From Brachybacterium sacelli (GTDB lineage: Bacteria; Actinomycetota; Actinomycetes; Actinomycetales; Dermabacteraceae), in NCBI RefSeq assembly GCF_017876545.1, contig NZ_JAGIOD010000001.1:1550001-1614000 (forward strand): a stretch of 64,000 bases of DNA, in the 5' to 3' direction. The notes below the pieces were generated by a model. It saw only the letters and a program-made list of their open reading frames with translations. It made no database searches and was not told the origin of the DNA. Shown here piece after piece: positions 55,817 through 61,805 of the stretch (the first letter of the stretch is position 1; every line of letters begins with the position of its first letter). Made by a program: the position numbers and the translations under genes.

Positions 55817-57304
55817 TCAACCGTCCGACCGGGAGAACCTGTTCGTCATCCGATTGCTCGCCGTGAACAGCACCGAGCCCAGTAGGGCATCGGTCGACTC
55901 GCGGATCTGCTCAGCAATTCCGGTGTTCGCCGCGGCCAGCAGAGCCGGGACGTCTCCCGCCGAGTCGACCCCGGCTGCTGAATCATCGGCTGCATGCACC
56001 GCGGCGTGGCCGAGCGTGAGGGTCCTCTGCTGGTAGCGCTCGATGTCGGGGATGATCTCCGCGTAGTGCGCATCGGCCAGCGCCGCGATCAGCCGGGAGG
56101 CCCAATAGAAGCTGTCGGTGCTCACCACCTCGGGGGTGGTGGCGAGGTATCCCGGGGCCTCCTCGACGTTCGTGAACATCGGGATCAGCGTGTTGAACGG
56201 GTTCGAGGCGTAGGCGACCCACTGCAGGGCACGGTGGGACTCGGGCAGGCCCGGCCGGATCTGCAGGATCGCGAGCGCGTTGTGGCGATTGATGCCGATG
56301 GGACGGAAGGCGCGGCGCTCGGTCTCGGTGCCGCGCGGGGAGTAGGGGTCGAACACGGTGCCCTGGTAGTGGGAGCTGAGCACGTCCTTGACGTCCTCGA
56401 TCATCAGCAGGCGCTCGGGCCGGCGGCTCCACGGGAGATCGTCGGAGTCGGGGCTCGCGCCGGGGAGCCCCGCGTCCCAGTCCTCACTGGTGGGGTTCAG
56501 GGTGCGCTGCATGTACCAGGCGCGGGGCGTGTTGTAGACGTGGTCGTGCTCTGAGTGAGAGCCGAAGGCCTCGCGCGGGTTGAACACCGCGGCGTCGTGG
56601 TCGGTGTCGTCGCGCAGGGTGAGGTCCAGGTGGTGCTCGCGCAGGAAGGCGCGCAGGTCGGGGCTCGCGAGATGGTCACGGCCGGGCCCCTCCGCATCCT
56701 CGAGGTCGAAGGAGTCGATGCCCAGCTGGTTCGGCATCGTCACGTAGTGGTCCTCGGGCACGCGCCGCGCGATCCAGTGATGTCCGCCCACGGTCTCGAG
56801 CCACCAGATGTCGCTCTCGTCGCTGAAGGCGATCCCGTTCATCTCGTACGTGCCGTGCTCAGCCAACAGCGCGCCGAGCCGCTGCACGCCCTCACGGGCG
56901 GAGCGGATGTAGGGGAGGACCAGGGTCACGAAGTCCTCCTCGCCGAAACTGCCGGGCTGCTCCCCGTCGCGCTCGACCAGCGGATCCGCGCCGAGCACCC
57001 GCGGGTTGCTCGTGATCGTCTCCGTCGCGCTCATCGCGACGTTCACCGCGTTGATCCCGGCGCAGCCCCAGATCCCCTCGTCCGGAAGGGCGTTGGGGAT
57101 CGAGGTATACCGCAGCGGCTCCTCCGGGAGCTCGATCGTGCGCCGGCCGACCACGGACGTGTACGTGCGCGGCTGGTCCTCCGGGCGCACCACCACGATC
57201 CGCTTCGGGTCGAAGCTCCCGTTCGAGGAGTCCTCAGTGCGGGCGACCAGGGGTGAGCCGTCGGCGCTGGCATGGCGGCCGACGAGGAGGGTGGTGCAGG
57301 GCAT
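55817..57304 (-). CDS. C69-family dipeptidase (PepD-like)
   Basis: A 495-residue Ntn-hydrolase-type dipeptidase. Cys3 in MPCTTLLVG is the expected N-terminal nucleophile after processing, with the C69 features ARTEDSSNGSFDPKR, GCAGINAVNVAMSATE, and DIWWLETVGGHHWIARRVPEDHY. It is cytoplasmic and cleaves dipeptides. The ATG at 57304 gives this N-terminus; upstream in-frame residues are unconserved. A hairpin of 8-base arms precedes it in the leader. Confidence 0.9.
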   Translation of the reverse strand: MPCTTLLVGRHASADGSPLVARTEDSSNGSFDPKRIVVVRPEDQPRTYTSVVGRRTIELPEEPLRYTSIPNALPDEGIWGCAGINAVNVAMSATETITSNPRVLGADPLVERDGEQPGSFGEEDFVTLVLPYIRSAREGVQRLGALLAEHGTYEMNGIAFSDESDIWWLETVGGHHWIARRVPEDHYVTMPNQLGIDSFDLEDAEGPGRDHLASPDLRAFLREHHLDLTLRDDTDHDAAVFNPREAFGSHSEHDHVYNTPRAWYMQRTLNPTSEDWDAGLPGASPDSDDLPWSRRPERLLMIEDVKDVLSSHYQGTVFDPYSPRGTETERRAFRPIGINRHNALAILQIRPGLPESHRALQWVAYASNPFNTLIPMFTNVEEAPGYLATTPEVVSTDSFYWASRLIAALADAHYAEIIPDIERYQQRTLTLGHAAVHAADDSAAGVDSAGDVPALLAAANTGIAEQIRESTDALLGSVLFTASNRMTNRFSRSDG

Positions 57305-57347
57305 GGTGTGAGGGCTCTCCTCAGGAAGCAGTTCAGTGCGACCCGTG

Positions 57348-57369
57348 CGAGGAGGATGCGGCCTCCTCG
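57348..57369 (-). promoter_or_regulatory. Hairpin in the dipeptidase leader
   Basis: CGAGGAGG (57348-57355), 6-base loop, CCTCCTCG (57362-57369): a perfect 8-base stem 44 bases before the dipeptidase start. The sequestered GGAGG could act on translation, or it may be an operator. Pattern only. Confidence 0.35.
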
Positions 57370-57867
57370 TGCAGATGCGTCTCGGCACACCCTACGACCG
57401 GACGGCGAGCCTCCTCACCGTGCGGGGACGATTTCCTCCTCGAAAACACAATGACCGCCTGAATCGCCCTGGTTTCCTCCGCCAGCAGCCACTTCGAGCA
57501 CAAGGGCTCATCGGCGACGGTTGTGCTCAGCTGGGCTAAGGCGGTCTTCGAGAGACTCGTAAGGTCCGGGCACTCGATACACTTGTCGGTTGTAAGCGTT
57601 TCCTTGAAATGGCACGAGCTGCGCGCGGGCGCGGCGTACACGGGGTCAGTGTCGTTTGAAGCAGATGTTCCCCGCGGGCATGCGGCCAGCGTCGTCATGT
57701 GTGGTTCTGTAGGTTTCCAGCATCAGCGCGGCCCGTCGACCTAGGGCCGGAACTCGGAGTTCGCGCACGGGGTACACTGCTCGACGGAACGTCTAGTTTG
57801 ATACGAGAATCTCCCGCCGAGGCAAACTTGAGCTCACTTGCGAGAAGGGTTTGCTTCGCAGGGCGCT

Positions 57868-57894: not shown

Positions 57895-57967
57895 GCTTTC
57901 CCATGTGCGTGGGGTAACTCGAAGGAGAGCGACCGGTAGGGCGTCACTGCGCCCCGCGACGATTGGA

Positions 57968-59221
57968 ATGATAATGGTGGGGAGTATTTTGATAGCTGGC
58001 GCAATCGTCGCCTTTGCAGCGATTGTGATCGTCAGGAGATGGAGAAGGTCTGCAGAAGCAACTGAGCTGTCTTTGTGGCGCAGGGCGGGATTCGTAAGTT
58101 CTTTCCTGGGTGTACTCGGAGGTGCAGGGATAATCGCCTTGCCGAACGCTACGGAGCGCTCACCGCTGCTCGGCCTTGCCGCCGCGCTGACCTTTATCAT
58201 CGGGATCATGGGGGCGGTCGGTGCATGGCGCGTCGATGCGTTCCTGAGGCGGTGGGGAACTACGACGGTCCGCCAGGCGCTCCCGCGGGCAGCCGCCAGC
58301 CGAGGGAGAGCAGTCAGGGACTCTGCTGTCGTGCTATGGCGGAACGTCACCGCACAGAACTGGTCTGAAGTGCGGCCGGAGGATTTCACCACCAAACGAC
58401 TGGAGGGGTTGCGGGGGTACTTCGGCCTCTACATCGTCCTGTTCCTCACGCTTCTGGCCGTGGCGACTCTCGGGGGTATGACCTCTGTGCTTATGGGAAA
58501 TGATATTTCGAACGCCGCGTTTGCAGCGTCGGTCTCTCTGAATGCTGTGCTGATAGCGTCGCACGCAGTTCTGTCGGCATTGCTAATGATGGCGGTTCTA
58601 TGGCTATTCAGGGCCGTGAGTTTGATCCAGGTATCGCTTTCTCCGGGGCGCGCGCTACGCACCGCAGCGGAGGCGGTGGGATGGGGTACCGCGGGAGGCG
58701 CGTTATTTGGTGCACTGGTCCCTCTGCTAATCACCTTCGAGCCAGTGGCGATCCTGTTTGGGGCCGGATCTGACGGTGGTGCGATCTATGAACCCAATAT
58801 AATTGTAAAACTTTCCGCGATTGGCGCGGTCGGAGGCCTGTTGTTCGGCGCTGCGATGATTCCATCGCTAGTGCTGCCGAGTGCCGAAAATCTGCTCTAT
58901 CGCCGGCTCCTAGGCCCGGTGGTTTATTGCGTGATCATCGGGATCACGTCGTTGAGCATGGCGCCGATCGGCCGGACGGGAAGGGAGCTTCTCGATATGA
59001 ACAGTTCGATCCTGGGCCTCGACGGGGTTCGCTGCGATGCAGCGGCGCCTGGTGGGGTAGATTTGGCGAAGCAATCGGTGGTATTGGAGCTCGTTGACGA
59101 GTGCGGGGGCGAGCTACTGTTGCCGGACACCGCTGTGGTGTGGAGCATTGTCCCACTGGTGCTCGGAATCGCTTTCGTTTTGGTCATCAACGACCTGAGG
59201 AGAAAGCGGGCATCCATGTAG
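57968..59221 (+). CDS. Polytopic membrane protein of unknown function
   Basis: A 417-residue protein with about nine hydrophobic segments: one at residues 2-20, pairs near 50-90, a cytoplasmic-like loop around 100-150, more at 160-300, and a C-terminal helix VVWSIVPLVLGIAFVLVI. A Cys-containing loop (VRCDAAAPGG...VDECGGE) precedes the last helix and may be extracytoplasmic. GC is lower and codon use less biased than in its neighbours, suggesting transfer. The start is unclear: ATG 57968 or 57974, or GTG 57905; GAAGGAGAG lies at 57921. I do not recognise the family. Confidence 0.6.
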   Translation: MIMVGSILIAGAIVAFAAIVIVRRWRRSAEATELSLWRRAGFVSSFLGVLGGAGIIALPNATERSPLLGLAAALTFIIGIMGAVGAWRVDAFLRRWGTTTVRQALPRAAASRGRAVRDSAVVLWRNVTAQNWSEVRPEDFTTKRLEGLRGYFGLYIVLFLTLLAVATLGGMTSVLMGNDISNAAFAASVSLNAVLIASHAVLSALLMMAVLWLFRAVSLIQVSLSPGRALRTAAEAVGWGTAGGALFGALVPLLITFEPVAILFGAGSDGGAIYEPNIIVKLSAIGAVGGLLFGAAMIPSLVLPSAENLLYRRLLGPVVYCVIIGITSLSMAPIGRTGRELLDMNSSILGLDGVRCDAAAPGGVDLAKQSVVLELVDECGGELLLPDTAVVWSIVPLVLGIAFVLVINDLRRKRASM

Positions 59222-59761: not shown

Positions 59762-61498
59762 TCAGGGCCGCGGGCGCGATGCTCCCAGCACCCGCCGGAA
59801 CCGATCTCGCAGCAGCGGGTCGACCACGTAGAGGTACGTCCCTCGCATCCCGCGCGTCAGCAGCACTCGGTAGACGTTCGTGACGTACTGCAGCAGATCA
59901 TCGTCAGTCGTGTCGCGGCCGCGCATCCGATTGTTCTGCTTGCCCTTCTTGTCGAAGTAGTTGGCCTTGTCGGCAGCGAGGAGTTCGGTCTCGGGGTCGA
60001 TCCGCAGGTCCCCGCCGATCAGTACTCCGGCATAGTTGAGGTCGTAGCCCTGGACGGTGTGGATAGAGCCGACCTCTTCGAGCGCGGTCTTCGAGGCGAT
60101 CCAGTCCACGTCGGAGACGTTCCAGTTCAGTCGGACGCCGTCGAGCTCGATGTCGTACTCGCCATTCTTCCTCCTGCTGCGCCACTCCCAGGCGTAGCCG
60201 GCAACAAGCCGTGCCAGGCCGAACTCGGCGTCGCGCTCGCGGATGCGCTGATGCATGGCGCCGAGGTCGTCGAACAGCTCCACCTCGTAGTCCTGAAGGT
60301 CGGGCACGTCGGGTGGCGGGTCGTCGGAGATCATTGTGCGAGCGAAATCGAGATACTCCTTGCCGCCCTTCACCCGCATCTGAGTCTCCAACGGATACCA
60401 GCGCTCCAACTGCCTCGTCTCGTCGATGACCCGGTCGAACACCTCGGGTTCGATGTCCGCCGGCCGAACGCTCTGCGCGGTGTCGAGCAGGAGAATCGTG
60501 TGCCGGGAGCGTGCCCGGAGCCAGTCGAGCTGGTTCAGCGAATAGTCGTCGGTACCGAACAGACGTCGGGTGATCTCCCCGAATCTCTTGGTGAGGGTGC
60601 CGTGAGCCTGTGAGGCACGCTGCGTGAGGCGATGCGCCTCATCGACGATCAGCACGTCGAAGTCCTCCTCGGCGTCGGCCACGTCGTACGGGGTCAGCAC
60701 TGCGGCGTCGCGGAGAGCAGGCACCTTACGGAACACCTTGGCGATCGACAGCCGTAGGGACTTCTGTGGGACCACGAGACCGATCCGCAGGCCCTCGAAG
60801 AGCTCCCGGTTCCCCTCGACGAAGAGATCGGAGAACATCGAGTCACCCTCCACCTCGTCCGTGGGATCGAACTCGGCGATGTCCCGCATCAGCTTCATCA
60901 GATAGATGCCCACGATGGTCTTGCCGGTCCCCGGATCGCCCTGGATGACCGCGAGCGAGTTTTCGCTGCGGGGGAGGTCCTCGACGAGTCCCTCCATGAT
61001 GTCCAGCACTGCGATTCCCTGCTCGGTGTTCAACGCCTTGTAGGGCGAGAGCTTGAACAGGTCAGAATTCTCGATCTGAGGGATCGTGCGCTCGAAGTAG
61101 CCCCGAGACCGGAGCTCCTCGAAGATCTCCTTGAAGGTGTCGTTGTACTCGCTGCGCTGGTAGTAGTCCTGGTTGGTGATCCCCTCGTTGCGATTGAGGA
61201 GGTCGAACTTCCCGTCACCGTCGAGCAGCCGGATGAGCAGGGACTCGAGGTCGAGGCACGCGGAGCCGTTGAACCGGTCGTCGATGACGATCCGCACTTC
61301 GCGCAGATGCTGCTTCTGCTGCGACTTCAGGTGCTGGCGCATCCGGCGATCCGCGCTGCCGGTCTCGCCCACGTAGATGTCGTGACCGTCCTCGATCAGG
61401 TACACGACCGGCCAGTTGGAGAAGCGGGGGAGTCTGGTCCTGGTCTCCTCGACAGACTCCGGGGCGAAGCGCAGCTCCTCGATCTCAAAGTCGGTCAT
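59762..61498 (-). CDS. GIY-YIG nuclease-DUF2075 helicase fusion
   Basis: A 578-residue fusion. Residues about 28-105 form a GIY-YIG-like domain (VVYLIEDG then IYVGET, followed by Arg in RRMRQHL and Glu in LESLL). Residues about 155-575 form a DUF2075/Schlafen-like superfamily 1 P-loop helicase: Walker A GDPGTGKT at 187-194, Walker B LIVDEAH at 283-289, then LLLDTAQS, IHTVQGYDL and LTRGMRGTYLYV (motif VI-like). It starts inside the end of the MazG-like gene (14-base overlap), so the two are coupled. A nucleic acid end-processing role is inferred. Confidence 0.88.
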   Translation of the reverse strand: MTDFEIEELRFAPESVEETRTRLPRFSNWPVVYLIEDGHDIYVGETGSADRRMRQHLKSQQKQHLREVRIVIDDRFNGSACLDLESLLIRLLDGDGKFDLLNRNEGITNQDYYQRSEYNDTFKEIFEELRSRGYFERTIPQIENSDLFKLSPYKALNTEQGIAVLDIMEGLVEDLPRSENSLAVIQGDPGTGKTIVGIYLMKLMRDIAEFDPTDEVEGDSMFSDLFVEGNRELFEGLRIGLVVPQKSLRLSIAKVFRKVPALRDAAVLTPYDVADAEEDFDVLIVDEAHRLTQRASQAHGTLTKRFGEITRRLFGTDDYSLNQLDWLRARSRHTILLLDTAQSVRPADIEPEVFDRVIDETRQLERWYPLETQMRVKGGKEYLDFARTMISDDPPPDVPDLQDYEVELFDDLGAMHQRIRERDAEFGLARLVAGYAWEWRSRRKNGEYDIELDGVRLNWNVSDVDWIASKTALEEVGSIHTVQGYDLNYAGVLIGGDLRIDPETELLAADKANYFDKKGKQNNRMRGRDTTDDDLLQYVTNVYRVLLTRGMRGTYLYVVDPLLRDRFRRVLGASRPRP

Positions 61499-61805
61499 AT
61501 TTTGTGCTCCGTCCCTTGGCCTTGTCCACCGGGTACTTCCGTGCTGTGCGCTCGAGCTTCGAGCGGACGATCTGCTCGGGGTCCAGGTCGAGACGGTCCG
61601 CGAGGAGCAAGGCGTAGGTGAGGACGTCGGCGAGCTCATCGGCCACACGTTCGCGATCGCCGTCGGCTCCCCACTGGAAGCACTCGAGCAGCTCACCCGC
61701 CTCGATCGCAACGGACTTGGAGAGGTTCTCCGGAGTGTGGAACTGTTCCCAGTCTCGCTCGGCCATGAAGGCTTGCAGCGTCTCGAGAACAGATTCGCTG
61801 GTCAT
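61485..61805 (-). CDS. MazG-like nucleotide pyrophosphohydrolase
   Basis: A 106-residue all-alpha NTP pyrophosphatase of the MazG-like/dCTPase type. Metal motif EAGE (35-38) with Glu41 and ELAD (57-60) matches the ExxE...ExxD pattern. It would hydrolyse a nucleoside triphosphate, perhaps dCTP or a modified nucleotide, to the monophosphate. It is the first gene of a two-gene operon with the GIY-YIG/DUF2075 helicase. Confidence 0.88.
   Translation of the reverse strand: MTSESVLETLQAFMAERDWEQFHTPENLSKSVAIEAGELLECFQWGADGDRERVADELADVLTYALLLADRLDLDPEQIVRSKLERTARKYPVDKAKGRSTKYDRL

Follow-up and report, generated by a model that had tools for sequence, protein, structure and literature searches.

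A linked MazG-like and nuclease-helicase gene pair in Brachybacterium sacelli, a candidate anti-invader module

The two proteins and their closest described relatives

Nuclease-helicase fusions are a known form of phage defence, as in the Nhi and AbiO systems, and other defences act by removing deoxynucleotides, as do those based on dCTP deaminase and dGTPase. The window, by which we mean the whole 64,000-nucleotide stretch of Brachybacterium sacelli DNA analysed here, encodes a nuclease-helicase that resembles the former, and its gene overlaps that of a MazG-like pyrophosphohydrolase (Table 1). To our knowledge, no MazG partner belongs to the Nhi and AbiO systems, enzymes of the DCTPP1/RS21-C6 type have no tie to a nuclease-helicase, and no named defence system has exactly this pair. 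The likeness to AbiO and Nhi is weak and local, confined to the helicase core (PADLOC; 6.1e-06 and 8.2e-05, respectively), and the full-length Nhi model gave no match to the window helicase. Two PADLOC candidate systems are similar in part, the PDC-S14 models to the GIY-YIG part (best 8.5e-06) and PDC-S41 to a piece of the helicase (1.1e-12), but neither model covers both domains. MazG is listed among the predicted, not validated, defence domains of DefensePredictor, but the accessible portion of that article does not name a pair of MazG and a GIY-YIG/SLFN-helicase (PMC13092281). A literature search, which omits subscription papers and most preprints, found no published description of the pair.

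Table 1. Features of the locus, in positions of the window
Feature	Position	Strand	Details
MazG-like gene	61485..61805	-	106 aa, ATG start
GIY-YIG / SF1 nuclease-helicase gene	59762..61498	-	578 aa from ATG at 61498
Overlap, 14 nt	61485..61498	-	MazG end YDRL-stop and helicase start MTxFE on common DNA
GIY-YIG domain	61154..61414	-	~residues 29-115; Y33, Y42-V-G44, R52, H56, E85, N102
SF1 helicase domain	59819..60955	-	residues 182-560; PF09848 and invariant columns
Low-GC orphan membrane protein	57905-59221		GC 0.599 vs 0.676 for the window

The helicase domain belongs to PF09848 (229.8 bits, E 7.8e-68, cut-off 24), formerly DUF2075 and currently named SLFN-g3_helicase ("Schlafen group 3") in Pfam. 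This domain is shared with the Schlafen proteins SLFN11 and SLFN5, and human SLFN11 was the best PDB match in a Foldseek search with the structure model (mean pLDDT 64.7; 5.2e-07, TM 0.30); the model for the viral locus L153 had a pLDDT of 61.5. Unlike the Schlafen proteins, the window protein has no match to the Schlafen/AlbA_2 RNase core domain (Pfam, E up to 1) and carries a GIY-YIG domain at its N-terminus instead. The Walker A (GDPGTGKT, G187-T194) and Walker B (DEAH, 286-289) motifs had been described as intact in the initial annotation, and indeed G187, G190, G192, K193, D286, E287 and H289 are invariant in an alignment of the window protein with 19 relatives that are 26-78% identical to it. 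Residues D339/Q342, G477-D486 and R549, which are likewise conserved, correspond to what we number as the later SF1 motifs III, V and VI.

The GIY-YIG domain had been called complete-looking, which holds for the Tyr-Tyr/Gly-Arg-Glu-Asn set that we take to be catalytic. Y33, Y42, G44, R52, H56 and E85 are invariant in the same alignment, N102 is kept in at least 90% of the 20 sequences, and the corresponding part of the structure model has the order strand-strand-helix-strand-helix. The match of the window protein to PF01541 (19.6 bits), however, falls below the cut-off of 22.6, which the domain of one relative (L094) exceeds with 28.1 bits.

The smaller protein matches PF12643 (72.9 bits, E 2.6e-20, cut-off 27 bits) as well as PF03819 (25.4 bits, cut-off 22). 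Its putative metal ligands, E35xxE38...E57xxD60, are invariant in all 12 aligned sequences, including that of the window, in agreement with the intact motifs noted earlier. The assignment to the MazG family thus stands, but it can be refined from a generic MazG to the DCTPP1 type, since the protein matches DCTPP1/RS21-C6 structures (PDB 6sqw, 2a3q, 2oie) at 8.6e-30 with a profile and at 1.4e-18 as a single sequence. The alignment spans nearly the whole protein, with ERDWEQFH, ExxE, FQW and ELxDVL kept, and differs in that L10 of the window protein takes the place of the mammalian H38. Judged from sequence, it is a DCTPP1/RS21-C6-type all-alpha NTP pyrophosphohydrolase, close to dCTP pyrophosphatase. 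According to one study, DCTPP1 acts on dCTP and C5-modified dCTP (PMC7162842), and we infer that the bacterial protein is a dCTP or 5-modified-dCTP pyrophosphatase, although the mammalian enzyme serves house-keeping and the bacterial substrate is predicted from homology only.

Linkage, distribution and mobility of the pair

The initial annotation had reported that the two genes overlap by 14 bases, as the coordinates of the open reading frames bear out; a longer, TTG-started frame of the nuclease-helicase extends to 61711. The same 14-nucleotide overlap is present in Brachybacterium copies and in several other genera, and translational coupling of the two genes is likely. Both are under purifying selection, as indicated by dN/dS values of 0.10-0.49 in 10 comparisons of the helicase gene and 0.17-0.42 in 9 of the MazG-like gene. 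The adjacency is more than chance: congeners retain it, together with the overlap, despite differing flanks, and the dN/dS values add to this.

Within Brachybacterium, the helicase is encoded in 12 of 38 genomes and adjoined by MazG in all 12, in one case as a mere remnant. Among 396 genomes of Actinomycetota, at least 39 contain the helicase, at least 54 MazG and at least 32 both, these counts being lower bounds because in each genome the two phylum searches scored no more than a few top candidates; the MazG profile (A2), derived from 12 helicase-adjacent genes, leans to such copies. The co-occurrence across these 396 genomes is strong if kinship is ignored (Fisher 5.6e-26). Furthermore, MazG is located within 3 kb of the helicase in 24 of the 39 helicase-bearing genomes (upstream in 14, downstream in 9 and divergent in 1), the kind of association that had been proposed as a check on the pairing; none was found within that distance in the other 15. 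A mirror-tree comparison of the two proteins over 18 loci gave a correlation of 0.864, which shared descent inflates and which none of 5000 permutations reached. Taken together, these sequence patterns indicate that the pair is a linked, co-selected unit.

Relatives of the helicase were also identified on plasmids, where MazG adjoins two of the seven full-length relatives examined (L090, L091), and on contigs deposited as phage. A first scan of the viral contigs with query A1 found no relative. Among the viral matches listed were five helicase loci, two with MazG adjacent (L151, L153), and at least 47 MazG loci, four with a helicase near (L163, L164, L195, L196). Since 43 of the 47 listed viral MazG loci lack a helicase within the retrieved stretches, we rejected MazG alone as a marker of the module. 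Nor need the two genes always act together, as suggested by one Brachybacterium genome (G016) in which MazG lies in three pieces, interrupted by a transposase/IstB insertion and at one further point, next to a helicase with an open frame, 90% identical to that of the window. The reverse is seen in another genome (G023), where the helicase is split and MazG is open; another MazG-like copy, which contains a stop, lies 30 kb away.

The GIY-YIG domain had been viewed as part of the pairing, but it does not appear to be essential, because the same MazG often adjoins helicases of a sister group, in which a PD-(D/E)XK-like domain takes the place of GIY-YIG. In an alignment of 17 sequences, a subset of this group, the RxD motif was present in 16 of 16 and ELKQW in 17 of 17. 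The split between the two types was read on fetched loci only, which cover 28 of the 39 helicase-bearing actinomycetotal genomes; 13 of these are of the GIY type, with MazG adjacent in 11.

The surroundings of the pair change from genome to genome. When ten Brachybacterium copies were compared together with roughly 30 kb of flank on either side, less than 6 kb was common to the two genomes in 43 of 45 pairs, a figure for the pair loci only. A conserved housekeeping operon at one site, the observation that would have spoken against the original proposal, can be rejected, since the pair occurs in 12 of 38 congeners and the immediate flanks differ. These features, together with the relatives on plasmids, agree with the earlier description of an accessory stretch, and they indicate that the pair is patchily distributed and moves horizontally between genomes as a unit. 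A gene for C69 dipeptidase lies on the same contig in six genomes (G000, G011, G058, G025, G027, G016), in all six at about 2-51 kb from the pair, so that a regional hotspot may exist even though the immediate flanks differ.

Genomic neighbourhood and a second nuclease-helicase

In the window itself, the neighbours are metabolic, a C69 dipeptidase and a SIS sugar isomerase (Pfam), and a defence island, which was looked for with Pfam and PADLOC, was not found. The low-GC orphan noted earlier has no Pfam match over the cut-off and none in PADLOC or NCBIfam; an IS remnant was not confirmed, and the two open reading frames read there have no Pfam match. Elsewhere, the pair may be modestly enriched for defence-gene neighbours; some copies lie near a type IV restriction enzyme, PD-Lambda-1, a BrxHI-like protein, Cas9 or Cas3e, and restriction genes occur near the plasmid relatives of the helicase. 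Matches to PADLOC numbered 139 families among 131 neighbour proteins and 43 among 131 controls (1e-15), but families rather than proteins were counted and a single Cas3 or helicase matches about 20 of them, so this is not a formal test. The neighbours were the nearest 131 of 164 proteins (at least 120 aa, within 4.5 kb), called by a GC-position script that missed the pair itself in L105, and the controls were chosen at random from 210. Named defence systems accounted for 5 of 10 large neighbours, chosen by size or closeness and not at random; the first 25 of 136 neighbour Pfam families listed are mostly metabolic or transport families. The initial view of a defence module is thus partly supported, by the mobile, linked nature of the pair and by the defence genes near some copies, but not by the neighbours in the window.

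A different nuclease-helicase, with PLD, ResIII and DUF3427 domains, adjoins the pair at three loci (L025, L090, L087). It resembles the pair in having a pyrophosphohydrolase as neighbour, but combines an SF2-type helicase with a PLD nuclease and a partner of the Nudix fold. Nudix genes were sought beside DUF3427 genes in 20 of 42 genomes and were regular in one of two types only, with 8 of 8 for the L090 type and 1 (weak) of 12 for the other. In L025 and L090 the pair has both a Nudix and a DUF3427 gene alongside, in L087 a DUF3427 gene without Nudix. The helicases of L025 and L087 are closer to the mostly Nudix-less type (~41-56% vs ~27-35%), and PADLOC labels that of L025 mREase_IV, a modification-directed restriction enzyme of type IV. 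For each of the two Nudix proteins checked, the best match among solved structures is a MutT, and MutT is known for 8-oxo-dGTP.

The combination of a nuclease-helicase with a (d)NTP pyrophosphohydrolase thus recurs, and it is tempting to speculate about a general, undescribed class of immunity in which restriction and nucleotide control form one system. Two unrelated helicase frames, SF1 Schlafen-type (with GIY-YIG or PD-(D/E)XK) and PLD-ResIII-DUF3427, would have converged with two unrelated pyrophosphohydrolase folds, DCTPP1-like MazG and Nudix, on the destruction of dCTP or 5-modified dCTP, and would sometimes be stacked. The pyrophosphohydrolase would block the phage from making a shielding modified cytosine, or the host from incorporating one. 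We put this idea forward only tentatively, since two of the three stacked copies (L025, L087) belong to the type in which Nudix is usually absent.

Proposed function and alternative explanations

We favor the hypothesis, with a probability of roughly 0.55, that the two genes form an anti-invader module that moves horizontally and combines an attack on DNA with the removal of dCTP or modified dCTP. The helicase would load onto invading phage or plasmid DNA and move along it, and the nuclease domain would nick or degrade it. At the same time, the MazG-like enzyme would hydrolyse dCTP and/or 5-modified dCTP to the monophosphate, leaving the invader short of precursor for replication or base modification, and the starved invader could then neither out-replicate the nuclease nor chemically shield itself from it. 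Coupled translation across the overlap would supply the two proteins in a fixed proportion.

The same enzymes might instead serve self-protection, with a nuclease-helicase that attacks modified-cytosine DNA and a pyrophosphohydrolase that spares the chromosome by clearing the host pool of 5-modified dCTP, derived for example by salvage from degraded phage DNA. The type IV restriction enzyme of L025 would fit such a scenario, as would the fact that the partners, of two unrelated folds, have relatives among the 5-methyl-dCTP hydrolases (DCTPP1/RS21-C6; Nudix MutT2 and the CTP pyrophosphohydrolase NudG). We find it doubtful, because no base-reader domain such as SRA was detected in the window helicase with Pfam and the affinity of the Nudix proteins to MutT points to 8-oxo-dGTP. 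If, on the other hand, the helicase-nuclease processed damaged DNA while its partner cleaned the dNTP pool, the pair would be an accessory to stress responses or DNA repair, with no role against invaders. The metabolic neighbours in the window and the house-cleaning functions of DCTPP1, MutT and NudG are what one would expect under this explanation; the patchy presence in Brachybacterium, the changing surroundings, the relatives on plasmids and phage contigs, and the proximity of several copies to restriction and CRISPR genes are not, and we consider it distinctly unlikely.

Finally, the tight coupling through the overlap and the correlated divergence of the two proteins could mean that MazG is an antidote or regulator, which destroys a nucleotide signal that the helicase makes or uses on sensing invaders, or restrains a helicase that is toxic without it. 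In G016, however, the helicase remains open beside a fragmented MazG and is seemingly not lethal alone, unless its activity has otherwise been lost, which weakens a strict toxin-antidote interpretation; moreover, among characterised enzymes, those most closely related to MazG act on dCTP. Such a role is highly improbable.

Should the anti-invader hypothesis hold, DNA attack and control of the dNTP pool, which are usually treated apart, would be joined in one coupled two-gene unit, and a Schlafen-type helicase would become part of that immunity unit. The pair is a small, directly clonable system and allows the substrate of its MazG-like protein to be predicted concretely, as dCTP or 5-modified dCTP.

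Gene structure and predicted activities of the pair

The initial annotation described a nucleotide pyrophosphohydrolase with intact metal motifs, overlapping by 14 bases a nuclease-helicase fusion with intact Walker A and B motifs and a complete-looking GIY-YIG domain. Most of this was borne out. The two genes share 14 nt, and in the alignments E35xxE38 and E57xxD60 are retained in the MazG-like protein, and Walker A, Walker B and the later SF1 motifs in the helicase domain. This domain is SLFN-g3_helicase under current Pfam naming and was formerly DUF2075. The GIY-YIG claim stood for the catalytic residues (Y33, Y42-V-G44, R52, H56, E85 and N102 are retained in the alignment) but not for the profile score, as PF01541 remained under the cut-off in the Pfam scan of the window protein (19.6 versus 22.6 bits); a relative passed it. 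The strand and helix order in a model of modest quality (mean pLDDT 64.7) fits GIY-YIG, as do the residues, despite the score. The top solved-structure match of the helicase model was human SLFN11 (5.2e-07, TM 0.30). The window's genome has one helicase copy.

Among solved structures, the MazG profile matched the dCTP pyrophosphatase DCTPP1/RS21-C6 over nearly the whole domain (8.6e-30) and 4qgp, an uncharacterised “pyrophosphatase” (8.4e-27), and far more weakly dimeric dUTPase (6.5e-08) and MazZ (2e-04). The window MazG as a single sequence matched 4qgp at 4.6e-19 and DCTPP1 at 1.4e-18. DCTPP1 is described as hydrolysing dCTP and C5-modified dCTPs (PMC7162842), and we infer that the window MazG may do the same.

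Locations of the pair and of related or neighbouring features (L, fetched loci; L025 from genome G011, L023 from G016, L090 a Lactiplantibacillus plasmid, L094 a contig deposited as phage)
Feature	Location	Strand	Basis
MazG-like gene, 106 aa	window 61485-61805	-	ORF and Pfam
GIY-YIG (N-terminal) and SF1 helicase (C-terminal) gene, 578 aa	window 59762-61498	-	ORF and Pfam
438-aa protein	window 57905-59221		
C69 dipeptidase gene	window 55817-57388		
Nudix and PLD-ResIII-DUF3427-kind helicase	L025:11658-15256		
Nudix and PLD-ResIII-DUF3427 helicase	L090:2312-5609		
Two genes without Pfam match and DUF2357-PDDEXK_7 gene	L090:7805-12735		
PD-Lambda-1-like protein (DUF4041, T5orf172/MUG113)	L031:11230-12825		
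GHKL-type ATPase and Hypoth_Ymh protein	L109:7697-9376		
Row of two helicases and MazG	L094:3064-6968		
Interrupted MazG with helicase	L023:8441-17833		
Second MazG-like copy, with stop	G023:C1:661054-661344 (L053)		

Linkage and selection

Full-strength helicase matches were found in 12 of the 38 Brachybacterium genomes, and MazG adjoins the helicase in the same 12. Two more gave weak MazG matches alone and two further ones nothing more than short PF09848 matches barely above the cut-off; sub-cut-off PF09848 matches in additional genomes of the genus were short P-loop matches. The identical gene overlap recurs in the listed copies of the genus and in several other genera. The dN/dS values of the helicase (0.10-0.49, 10 comparisons) and of MazG (0.17-0.42, 9 comparisons) show that purifying selection acts on both genes. 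Their protein distances are correlated (r = 0.864 over 18 loci, with 0 of 5000 permutations as high; r = 0.598 inside the genus), a correlation to which shared descent contributes. Damaged copies also occur. In G016 a transposase/IstB pair lies between the first two of three MazG pieces and an integrase gene between the last two; the helicase frame beside them is open and 90% identical to that of the window, so that this is a natural MazG-less copy. The helicase is broken into two frames in G023 and reaches the contig end in G005. At a distance of 30 kb from its pair, G023 also carries another MazG-like copy, which contains a stop and shares 60% identity with the window MazG.

Profile searches of 396 genomes sampled across the Actinomycetota identified the helicase in at least 39 genomes, MazG in at least 54 and both in at least 32. 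Co-occurrence of the two genes, a check proposed in the initial annotation, was observed within 3 kb in 24 of the 39 helicase genomes (MazG lies upstream of the helicase in 14, downstream of it in the same orientation in 9 and divergently in 1). No MazG was found within 3 kb in the other 15. That the gene order varies yet the linkage is retained favours function over accident. The MazG profile leans toward helicase-adjacent copies because it was built from such copies; it also recovered many unlinked ones, chiefly in one family (f21). Fetched loci from 28 of the 39 genomes resolved two helicase lineages. The GIY-YIG lineage comprises 13 genomes, with MazG adjacent in 11. The N-terminus of the other lineage has RxD in 16/16 and ELKQW in 17/17 aligned sequences, which in our reading suggests a PD-(D/E)XK-type signature, a family label unsupported by Pfam naming.

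Genomic surroundings and mobile elements

The pair itself was the sole widely recurring content within 20 kb of the copies in the window and 10 loci; other flank genes, alternative frames of the pair excepted, matched in at most 3 loci. When 10 copies were compared together with roughly 30 kb of flanking DNA in both directions, the shared flank was below 6 kb in 43 of 45 genome pairs and zero in 24 of these, figures that describe the surroundings of the pair alone. The exceptions were G000/G015 (14 kb) and G030/G031 (16 kb). The C69 dipeptidase gene lies about 2-51 kb from the pair in 6 Brachybacterium genomes, which hints at a regional insertion hotspot. Between this gene and the pair is the 438-aa protein, which fits its earlier description as a low-GC orphan (GC 0.599; no Pfam match above cut-off and none in NCBIfam or PADLOC); the initial annotation considered it a membrane protein.

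To survey the defence context, we compared 131 of 164 proteins within about 3.5-4.5 kb of the pair at 23 loci with 131 of 210 control proteins from 18 regions of pair-bearing genomes. At 1e-15 the neighbours matched 139 PADLOC families and the controls 43, a contrast that is a rough guide because the families overlap heavily; the control list consisted mostly of kinase models. The Pfam families shown for the neighbours were chiefly for transport and metabolism. A second scan of 10 neighbours chosen for size or closeness gave five clear defence proteins (type IV REase, Cas9, Cas3e, a BrxHI-like helicase and PD-Lambda-1) and five weak or negative results. PADLOC found no defence gene near the window copy. 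The PD-Lambda-1-like protein of L031 is about 100 nt from the pair's MazG, and the GHKL-type ATPase and Hypoth_Ymh protein near the pair in L109 possibly represent a further defence gene.

A plasmid tblastn search gave 39 records, 10 covering most of the query. MazG was adjacent in two of seven examined, a Lactiplantibacillus and a Ligilactobacillus plasmid, the latter with the pair adjoining type I restriction genes. The phage collection contained five matching records, and MazG was adjacent in all three fetched (L087, L088 and L094), human faecal contigs of unverified phage status. The L087 helicase is 48% identical to the window protein over its whole length, and L094 has a non-GIY-YIG SLFN-g3 helicase (PD-(D/E)XK-type N-terminus), MazG and a GIY-YIG-SLFN-helicase in a row. 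Among the IMG/VR matches listed, MazG was adjacent in 2 of 5 helicase loci and the helicase present in 4 of 47 MazG loci.

A possible anti-invader function and a second pairing

Our data show linkage, overlap, selection, intact catalytic sets and a patchy presence with varying flanks. We hypothesize that the helicase would act upon invading DNA, that the nuclease domain would cut it, that MazG would remove dCTP or modified dCTP, and that nuclease-helicase and MazG would jointly halt the invader. Removal of dCTP or modified dCTP could serve starvation, loss of a shielding modification or self-protection. We slightly favour an anti-invader module that operates broadly in this way, with a probability of roughly 55%. 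The pair is called a candidate nuclease-helicase defence, of an already known kind. MazG appears among the predicted, unvalidated defence domains of DefensePredictor (PMC13092281). The PADLOC models included none that matched MazG or that covered both domains of the window helicase protein, and no paper on the pair was found among the open-licence literature searched. The initial annotation likewise knew of no named defence system with exactly this pair.

A second kind of nuclease-helicase has a comparable partner. In L025, 67 nt past the pair, a Nudix gene overlaps the gene of a 1047-aa protein that is a type IV REase by PADLOC. In L090, MazG and the GIY-YIG-helicase come after homologues of these two proteins (28% and 39% identical), and Pfam identifies the large one as PLD-ResIII-DUF3427. 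A relative of the large protein overlaps MazG in L087, where there is no Nudix. The further genes that follow the GIY-YIG-helicase in L090 may be a larger system. DUF3427 occurred in 42 of the 396 Actinomycetota genomes, and the surroundings were fetched for 20. Nudix was adjacent, in either orientation, in 8/8 loci with a full-length DUF3427 (L253-L260), versus one weak match among 12 with a partial one, which indicates that one type is regularly paired with Nudix. The L090 protein falls into the full-length type and those of L025 and L087 into the partial type; L025 thus has Nudix although its type is usually without. The closest PDB match of the two Nudix proteins checked was a MutT, with further matches to MutT2 and to the CTP pyrophosphohydrolase NudG (2rrk). 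Activity on 5-methyl-dCTP is described for mycobacterial MutT2, E. coli Orf135 and RS21-C6/DCTPP1 (PMC10742078).

The design of a nuclease-helicase with a pyrophosphohydrolase therefore occurs twice, with unrelated parts. On a bold reading, such pairing may represent a wider principle.
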